From Candidatus Tectimicrobiota bacterium (GTDB lineage Bacteria > Tectomicrobia > Entotheonellia > Entotheonellales > Entotheonellaceae), in assembly GCA_026005175.1 (NCBI GenBank), contig BPKO01000008.1, forward strand, positions 108,553 through 172,552: DNA of 64,000 nucleotides. The letters run 5' to 3'. The translations under genes and the position numbers were made by a program. Below the pieces are notes generated by a model. It did not search any database and was not told the DNA's origin. It saw nothing but the letters and a program-made list of their open reading frames with translations. Shown here in pieces: positions 25,368 to 27,141 of this stretch (the first letter of the stretch is position 1; each line of letters opens with the position of its first letter).

Positions 25368-26042
25368 ATGGCATCAACGCTTTATTTGCGGCAGCTTGAA
25401 TGCGGGCCGATGCAGAACTTCGTGTACCTTATTGGGGATCCGACGACGCGTCAGGCGGCGGTGGTCGATCCGGCCTGGGACATCTCGGGTATCGTACAGG
25501 CTGCGGCGGAAGACGGCTACACCCTCACCAAGGTGCTGATTACCCATACCCATCAGGACCACACCGGTGGCCAGCTCTTTGGCTACCACATCCCCGGGGT
25601 GGTAGAGCTGCTGCAGCAGTACGACGTGCCCGTGTACGTGCACCAGAGCGAGGCCCACGTCCTCAAAGACATCCCGCCCTCTTCCAAAGTCCCCACGCGC
25701 AACGGGCAGGTGATCGAGGTGGGCAAGCAGGTGGCCATTACCCTGCTGCACACCCCGGGCCACACGCCGGGGTCGCAGTGCTTCCTGGTGCAGAACCGGC
25801 TGATCGCCGGAGACACGCTGTTTATTGGCTCCTGCGGCCGCGTCGACTTGCCCAACAGCAGTCCCGAGGACATGTACCACAGTCTGACCAACGTGTTGAT
25901 GCGGCTCGACGACGACACGGTGCTCTATCCCGGGCACAACTACGCCTGGAAGCCGTCCTCGACCATTGGCGAAGAGCGCCGTCACAACCCCTACGTGCAG
26001 TTCACTTCGCTGCACGACTTCCTGCGTGCCATGGGGTACTGA
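25368..26042 (+). CDS. MBL-fold metallo-hydrolase (glyoxalase II/persulfide dioxygenase-like)
   Basis: 224 residues. The metal motif HTHQDH is at 60-65, followed by TPGHTPGSQCFLV, GDTLFIGSCGR and VLYPGHNY, giving all the expected metal ligands of a glyoxalase-II-like enzyme. The N-terminus (LYLRQLECGPMQNFVYLIGD) is typical of the subgroup that hydrolyses thioesters or oxidises persulfides; the sequence alone does not separate them. It is the first of three plus-strand genes (MBL, DsbA-fold selenoprotein, DUF971) with 38 and 47 bp gaps and is preceded by TATAAT. A thiol-related job is inferred from that company. Confidence 0.85.
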   Translation: MASTLYLRQLECGPMQNFVYLIGDPTTRQAAVVDPAWDISGIVQAAAEDGYTLTKVLITHTHQDHTGGQLFGYHIPGVVELLQQYDVPVYVHQSEAHVLKDIPPSSKVPTRNGQVIEVGKQVAITLLHTPGHTPGSQCFLVQNRLIAGDTLFIGSCGRVDLPNSSPEDMYHSLTNVLMRLDDDTVLYPGHNYAWKPSSTIGEERRHNPYVQFTSLHDFLRAMGY

Positions 26043-26080
26043 GCGTGGCGCGCCAACCTTAACGCAAAGGAGGAACGGCC

Positions 26081-26743
26081 ATGAGTGCCTACGACCTCAC
26101 GGTGTGGAGCTGCTACGTGTGACCCTATGCTTGGCGGGCCACGGAGTGGCTCGAGCGCGTGAAGCAGAAGCTGGGCGATGAGCTGCGGATTACCTGGAAG
26201 GCCTTCTTACTAGAGCAAGTCAACAGCCGCCGCGGTGAAGGCTGGAAGGCTTGGAAGGACACCCGCTTCACCAGCCGCGACTTGCCGCCGCACGAAGCGG
26301 CCAAGAGCGTGCTGGCCACGCACGGGGAAGCCGCCTTCAACCGCTTTCACCTTGCCGTCTTCCGCGCCTACCACAAGGACAAGCGCGACATTGCCAACCC
26401 GCTGGAGCTGCTGGCCATCGCCCGCGAGGTGGATCTCGACACCACGGTGCTGGCCGAAGACCTGCGCACGCGCAAGTACCGCGAGGCCGTGGGCGCCGAC
26501 CACGAGGAGGCTGACGAGCAGTACGACATTTTTGGCGTTCCTACGATTCTGTTTAACGGCACGCAGCCCACGTTTCTCAAGCTCGAAGGCGGCGACTGGG
26601 AAGGCACCGACGACCTGGAGTTCTTCTACGCGCTCTACCAGGTCGCGGCCACCCGGCCCTACGTGCTGGAGATCAAAAAGCCCGTCTCCGCAGCCCTTGC
26701 CAGGGCGGCCGAGGCGCGGTATCGTGCGATGTACGGGAACTAG
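26081..26743 (+). CDS. DsbA/FrnE-fold oxidoreductase, predicted selenoprotein (UGA at codon 14)
   Basis: 220 residues if UGA is read as selenocysteine. AAAGGAGG (26066-26073) precedes the ATG. The N-terminus reads MSAYDLTVWSCYV-U-PYAWRATEW: a redox motif C11-x-x-U14 right after the first beta strand of a thioredoxin fold. The rest is a DsbA-like helical insertion and the cis-proline loop FGVPTILFNG (Pro154), as in FrnE/2-hydroxychromene-2-carboxylate isomerase relatives. The frame is open on both sides of the UGA, and a SECIS-like hairpin follows it. A search starting after the UGA would give a protein from 26159 lacking its active site. Thiol-disulfide or glutathione-conjugate chemistry is inferred. 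A nonsense mutation of a CxxC gene is the alternative. Confidence 0.82.
26120..26122 (+). other. In-frame UGA, predicted selenocysteine codon
   Basis: Codon 14 of the DsbA-fold gene, at the place of the second Cys in CxxC. Confidence 0.75.
26135..26153 (+). promoter_or_regulatory. SECIS-like hairpin after the UGA
   Basis: CGGGCCAC and GTGGCTCG form an 8-bp stem (one G-U pair) closed by the loop GGA. The loop begins at base +21 after the UGA and starts with G, matching the spacing (about 16-37) and loop rule of bacterial SECIS elements that bind SelB. The hairpin lies within the coding sequence, as expected in bacteria. Confidence 0.68.
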
Positions 26744-26790
26744 CACGCCGCCGTGCCGGTGGCAGCCACCGGCACGGCGAGGGATTGGAA

Positions 26791-27141
26791 ATGGCTGAGG
26801 TTCGCGAGCCGGTTTATCCTGTCGAAGTGCACCGCAACTACCAGGGAACGATGCGCGTGCTCTGGAGCGACGGGCACGAGAGCCGCTATGCCTACGCCGA
26901 GTTGCGCAAAGCTTGTCCCTGCGCCACCTGCCGCGAGCAGCGGGCCCAGCAGCAGCAGAACCCCTTCCAGATCCTGACCAGCGTCACCCCCAAGGAAGTA
27001 GAGCCGGTGCGCCTGAGCGCGGTAGGCAACTACGCCCTGAGTATCGAGTGGAGCGACGGGCACCGCACGGGCATTTACCCCTGGGAGCTGCTGCGGGCGC
27101 TGTGCCCCTGCCCGCAGTGCCGCCCCTCGTCGGCGCCGTGA
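26791..27141 (+). CDS. DUF971 family protein with two CPCxxC motifs
   Basis: 116 residues. Two similar halves, each with a W-S-D-G-H segment (VLWSDGHESRYAY and IEWSDGHRTGIYPWELLRA) and a Cys cluster: ACPCATCR after the first and LCPCPQCRP at the end. DUF971 (gamma-butyrobetaine-hydroxylase-like N-terminal domain) is a small zinc- or Fe-S-binding domain found next to Fe-S scaffold proteins or fused to oxygenases. The doubled CPCxxC suggests metal binding. Third gene of the redox cluster, and it converges with the MaoC gene. Start taken at the ATG; a TTG 6 bp earlier is also in frame. Confidence 0.8.
   Translation: MAEVREPVYPVEVHRNYQGTMRVLWSDGHESRYAYAELRKACPCATCREQRAQQQQNPFQILTSVTPKEVEPVRLSAVGNYALSIEWSDGHRTGIYPWELLRALCPCPQCRPSSAP

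Follow-up and report, generated by a model that had tools for sequence, protein, structure and literature searches.

Selenoproteins of the DSBA domain family (PF01323) have been described as form 1 with a UxxC motif and form 2 with a DxxUP motif (PMC13188914), and as the GOS 'DsbA 3' group with a UxxV motif (PMC2398784). FrnE proteins contain a CxxC motif, often together with a C-terminal CX4C motif, and the function of DR2335 from Deinococcus radiodurans is unreported (PMC8945050). Here we describe a gene at positions 26081-26743 of a 64,000-nucleotide stretch of a Candidatus Tectimicrobiota bacterium genome (contig BPKO01000008.1; hereafter the window), on the + strand like all other window features given below. 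Judged from its sequence and its relatives, this gene almost certainly encodes a thioredoxin-fold enzyme of 220 residues, with selenocysteine (Sec) inserted at an in-frame UGA. Our explanation as a whole, to which we assign a probability of roughly 0.95, is that the product is probably a cytoplasmic DsbA-fold oxidoreductase with a nucleophilic Sec14, and that the UGA is decoded via SelB and a downstream hairpin.

The reading frame runs from ATG 26081 through a TGA at codon 14 (26120-26122) and 206 further sense codons to TAG at 26741-26743. Upstream of the ATG lies AAAGGAGGAACGGCC, with AGGAGG and the ribosome binding site AAGGAGGA at 26067-26074, and an AAGGAG-type site precedes the ATG in all three orthologues as well. 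Ribosome binding site, start codon, TGA, and open frame had all been recognized in an earlier sequence-only reading and were confirmed, as was its warning that a gene caller starting at GTG 26159 would lose the active site, since the routine ORF call indeed begins there. The same reading let the frame end in the cis-Pro loop FGVPT, but this loop comprises residues 151-155 of 220 (26531-26545) and is internal. When all TGAs in the window were ranked by coding potential, four came out above TGA 26120; these had the appearance of ordinary stops with a same-frame open stretch beyond, and no second selenoprotein candidate was chosen.

The read-through protein matches PF01323 (DSBA, E 5.8e-19) with 69.1 bits against a cut-off of 25.6, far above its score with the Rv2466c-like profile PF22234 (28.8 vs. 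a cut-off of 27 bits), and the Pro of its cis-Pro loop is invariant in the alignment, in keeping with a DsbA-like fold. A fold search with an AlphaFold model of low confidence (mean pLDDT 59), in which the Cys11-Sec14 geometry is tentative, ranked Rv2466c, DR2335, FrnE, and kappa GST highest. The Pfam match bears out the DsbA part of the previously proposed DsbA/FrnE fold, but in fold the protein stands closest to Rv2466c and DR2335 and not to FrnE proper.

In an alignment of the active site with six paralogues of this phylum, of which four have Cys and two a Sec of their own in this place, U14 coincides with the first Cys of the CPW(A/C) motif, i.e., on the N-terminal, nucleophilic Cys of the DsbA/Rv2466c-like paralogues and of DR2335, and not on the second Cys of a CxxC motif as had been supposed. 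The comparison of homologues at codon 14 that had been suggested showed UGA in the orthologues and Cys at the Sec position in paralogues and DR2335. The residue at +3 is Ala17, and the residue at -3 (codon 11, 26111-26113) is Cys in four of four selenoproteins and Asp in every aligned paralogue and in DR2335. Because U14 stands on the first Cys, with Ala17 at +3 and Cys11 at -3, the active site is to be written as CxxUPxA; the classical CxxC dithiol site is absent, and U-P-Y-A is found in all four orthologues. The Rv2466c-like (PF22234) paralogues L022, L024, L025, and L027 are themselves mixed, some having a single-Cys CPWA and some CPWC.

Orthologues were sought in five genomes of the phylum, and the gene is carried by the window's genome and by three genomes of the same family. 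The three orthologues, at 72-74% amino acid identity, come from Entotheonella-family genomes of two further genera, and an in-frame TGA stands at the identical codon in all four genomes (three genera), two of which are single-contig assemblies. The motif reads W(S/N)CYV-U-PYAWRAxEWL throughout, CYVUPYAWRA being among the most conserved stretches of the protein. Downstream of the TGA, dN/dS is about 0.12-0.15 with pS of about 0.6 relative to the window's genome, while divergence in the 13 upstream codons, a small sample, is mainly synonymous; purifying selection together with high synonymous divergence is hence seen on both sides of the TGA. GenBank records name two of the orthologue genomes as uncultured Candidatus Entotheonella and one as a 'Proteobacteria' MAG; the latter (SXND01000123.1, L031) is assigned to the Entotheonella family in the genome collection, where the gene fits. 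An extra TAG in orthologue L018 proved to be the normal stop after 215 amino acids.

An alignment-based scan of genome contigs matched the three relatives only, and a single-protein pattern scan of these contigs gave zero matches, its patterns being too specific, with Cys where the relatives have TGA. With the narrow patterns of the alignment-based scan, no close Cys-form orthologue of the subfamily was found among the genome contigs. Protein and DNA pattern searches of viral contigs yielded zero matches, and a plasmid search returned distant Caballeronia proteins only, with CPFC in the one inspected.

The window's genome contains every sel gene whose presence had been proposed as a check: selA (638 bits) and selB (391 bits; searched in this genome only) are adjacent genes on contig C3, tRNA-Sec (76.5 bits, anticodon TCA, i.e., UCA) lies 7 kb from them, and selD (379 bits) itself contains a UGA where the catalytic residue is encoded (VACAG-U-ASK). 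Across the five genomes of the phylum, tRNA-Sec and selD exceed their cut-offs in every one; selA does so in four, while the remaining genome (G003) has a contig-end fragment below cut-off. SelD has an in-frame UGA in G000 (the window's genome), G003, and G004, with VACAG-U-ASK read in the first two. G001 and G002, the two single-contig genomes, instead encode SelD with Cys (GGCGAK), though the window-type gene there keeps its UGA. The Entotheonella lineage, known as natural-product-rich sponge symbionts, is thus found to carry the Sec trait, and our literature search found no paper covering both Entotheonella and selenoproteins.

A SECIS-like hairpin, CGGGCCAC-GGA-GUGGCUCG, lies at 26135-26153, with arms at 26135-26142 and 26146-26153 and the loop GGA at 26143-26145. 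A spacer of 12 nt separates the UGA from the stem, with 20 nt between UGA and loop, so that the 8-bp stem, the GGA loop, and their placement are as first described. The published model asks for a loop of 3-9 nt with an early G, 4-16 bp, a spacing of 16-37 nt, and at most -7.5 kcal/mol (PMC13188914); the hairpin fits it in all four genomes (20 nt, 8 bp, -11.6 to -12.1 kcal/mol). The GGA loop is invariant, and the two varying stem positions show one-sided, pair-preserving changes with zero breaks; no two-sided covariation occurs among the four sequences. Of codon positions picked at random from long ORFs in the window, 14% pass -7.5 kcal/mol and 3.9% equal the stability of the candidate hairpin, shuffled sequences fold about equally well (z -0.17), and an Rfam scan of the locus gave no SECIS family match and chance miRNA matches only. 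By itself the hairpin is weak evidence, being unexceptional in this GC-rich sequence.

If the UGA were a true stop, the real protein would start at GTG 26159 and be devoid of the active site. That GTG is kept in four of four genomes and is what a gene caller would pick, but codons 1-26 are protein-coding by their substitution pattern and include the highly conserved CYVUPYAWRA, the ribosome binding site stands before ATG 26081, and the truncated form would lose the fold's first strand along with its nucleophile, which makes termination at codon 14 very improbable. A sequencing error or a pseudogene, with TGA in place of TGC or TGT, is hardly credible: the codon is one base away from Cys and the data are metagenome-assembled, yet the TGA is common to four separate genomes, including two single-contig ones, and dN/dS is low across the whole frame.

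It is likewise highly improbable that the UGA is read as another residue, be it Trp or through a general change of code. The frame would be open under such a code, but the neighbouring genes terminate in TGA (26040-26042 and 27139-27141), tRNA-Sec, SelA, SelB, and SelD are present, and the homologues carry Cys at the site and not Trp. The original selenoprotein claim is supported by the TGA in all four orthologues, the Sec machinery, and the Cys at this site in homologues; we make the selenoprotein call because of the comparative evidence, namely the kept TGA, the dN/dS, and the kept pairing, and not because of the hairpin alone.

We infer Sec insertion at UGA 14 and a SECIS function of the hairpin, as well as the resolving partner, substrate, and location proposed here. 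SelB with Sec-tRNA (anticodon UCA) would recognize the hairpin, the loop of which is 20 nt downstream, and UGA 14 would be decoded as Sec. The protein would act as a thiol/selenol oxidoreductase with Sec14 as the nucleophile; placed where the active-site helix (U-P-Y-A) begins, beside the cis-Pro154 loop, Sec14 would attack a disulfide or a peroxide-type substrate. With Ala in place of the usual +3 Cys, resolution of the intermediate would fall to Cys11, via a selenenylsulfide of the CxxU type, or to a low-molecular-weight thiol. We tentatively consider, with more doubt than conviction, that the resolving partner has shifted from +3 (CPxC) to -3, replacing the Asp, and that a Cys11-Sec14 selenenylsulfide forms an inverted active site in Entotheonella-type bacteria. 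Replacement of the -3 Asp by Cys, combined with the loss of the +3 Cys, provides a testable case for the re-siting of a redox partner in a Sec enzyme, and routine gene models in Entotheonella-type genomes lose the active site of the window-type protein.

A GBBH-like_N (PF06155) gene at 26785-27141 stands near the selenoprotein gene in all four genomes, and this proximity suggests a shared process. The GBBH-like_N gene (window and L029-L031) has two Cys-rich motifs, and a MaoC gene comes next in three genomes. The window's genome also contains a second DsbA/FrnE-like selenoprotein gene (L020:1282-1896, on G000:C5) with SDYL-UGA-PWCYPA, i.e., with Sec where CPWC has its first Cys, similar to the published UxxC and DxxUP forms. 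It is kept in three genomes of the phylum, a second family among them (also L021:1285-1899, and L019 on the minus strand).

Among solved structures, the best relative of the window protein is DR2335 (PDB 7dk9), whose single-Cys motif CPYAWR places Cys24 at the position of Sec14; PDB 7dka is its C24S mutant, differing at the very residue aligned with Sec14. Unlike the window protein, DR2335 has Cys instead of Sec and Asp at -3, and identity in the structural alignment is about 22%. Rv2466c, a mycothiol-dependent nitroreductase, represents the top fold-search group, with PF22234 just over its cut-off, whereas Rv2466c-like paralogues have Cys at the site (CPWC in L027) and the window protein has Sec with no +3 Cys. 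FrnE belongs to the DsbA superfamily as well, shares the cis-Pro loop, and aligns its CP(W/F)C with UPYA, but neither CxxC nor a C-terminal CX4C exists in the window protein. The published PF01323 selenoproteins have the same Pfam domain, are bacterial, and were identified by an in-frame UGA plus a SECIS; form 2 (DxxUP) shares Sec followed by Pro, and UxxV ('DsbA 3') shares the lack of a +3 Cys. In contrast to these forms, compared here by motif only, the window protein replaces the -3 Asp with Cys and has Ala at +3. By motif description it may be nested inside the DxxUP form. CxxUPxA is absent from the published PF01323 selenoprotein motifs, including a 119-entry table (PMC13188914, PMC2398784), and, as far as published motif descriptions set it apart, the window protein adds to the PF01323 selenoproteins a subfamily whose motif is unlisted.
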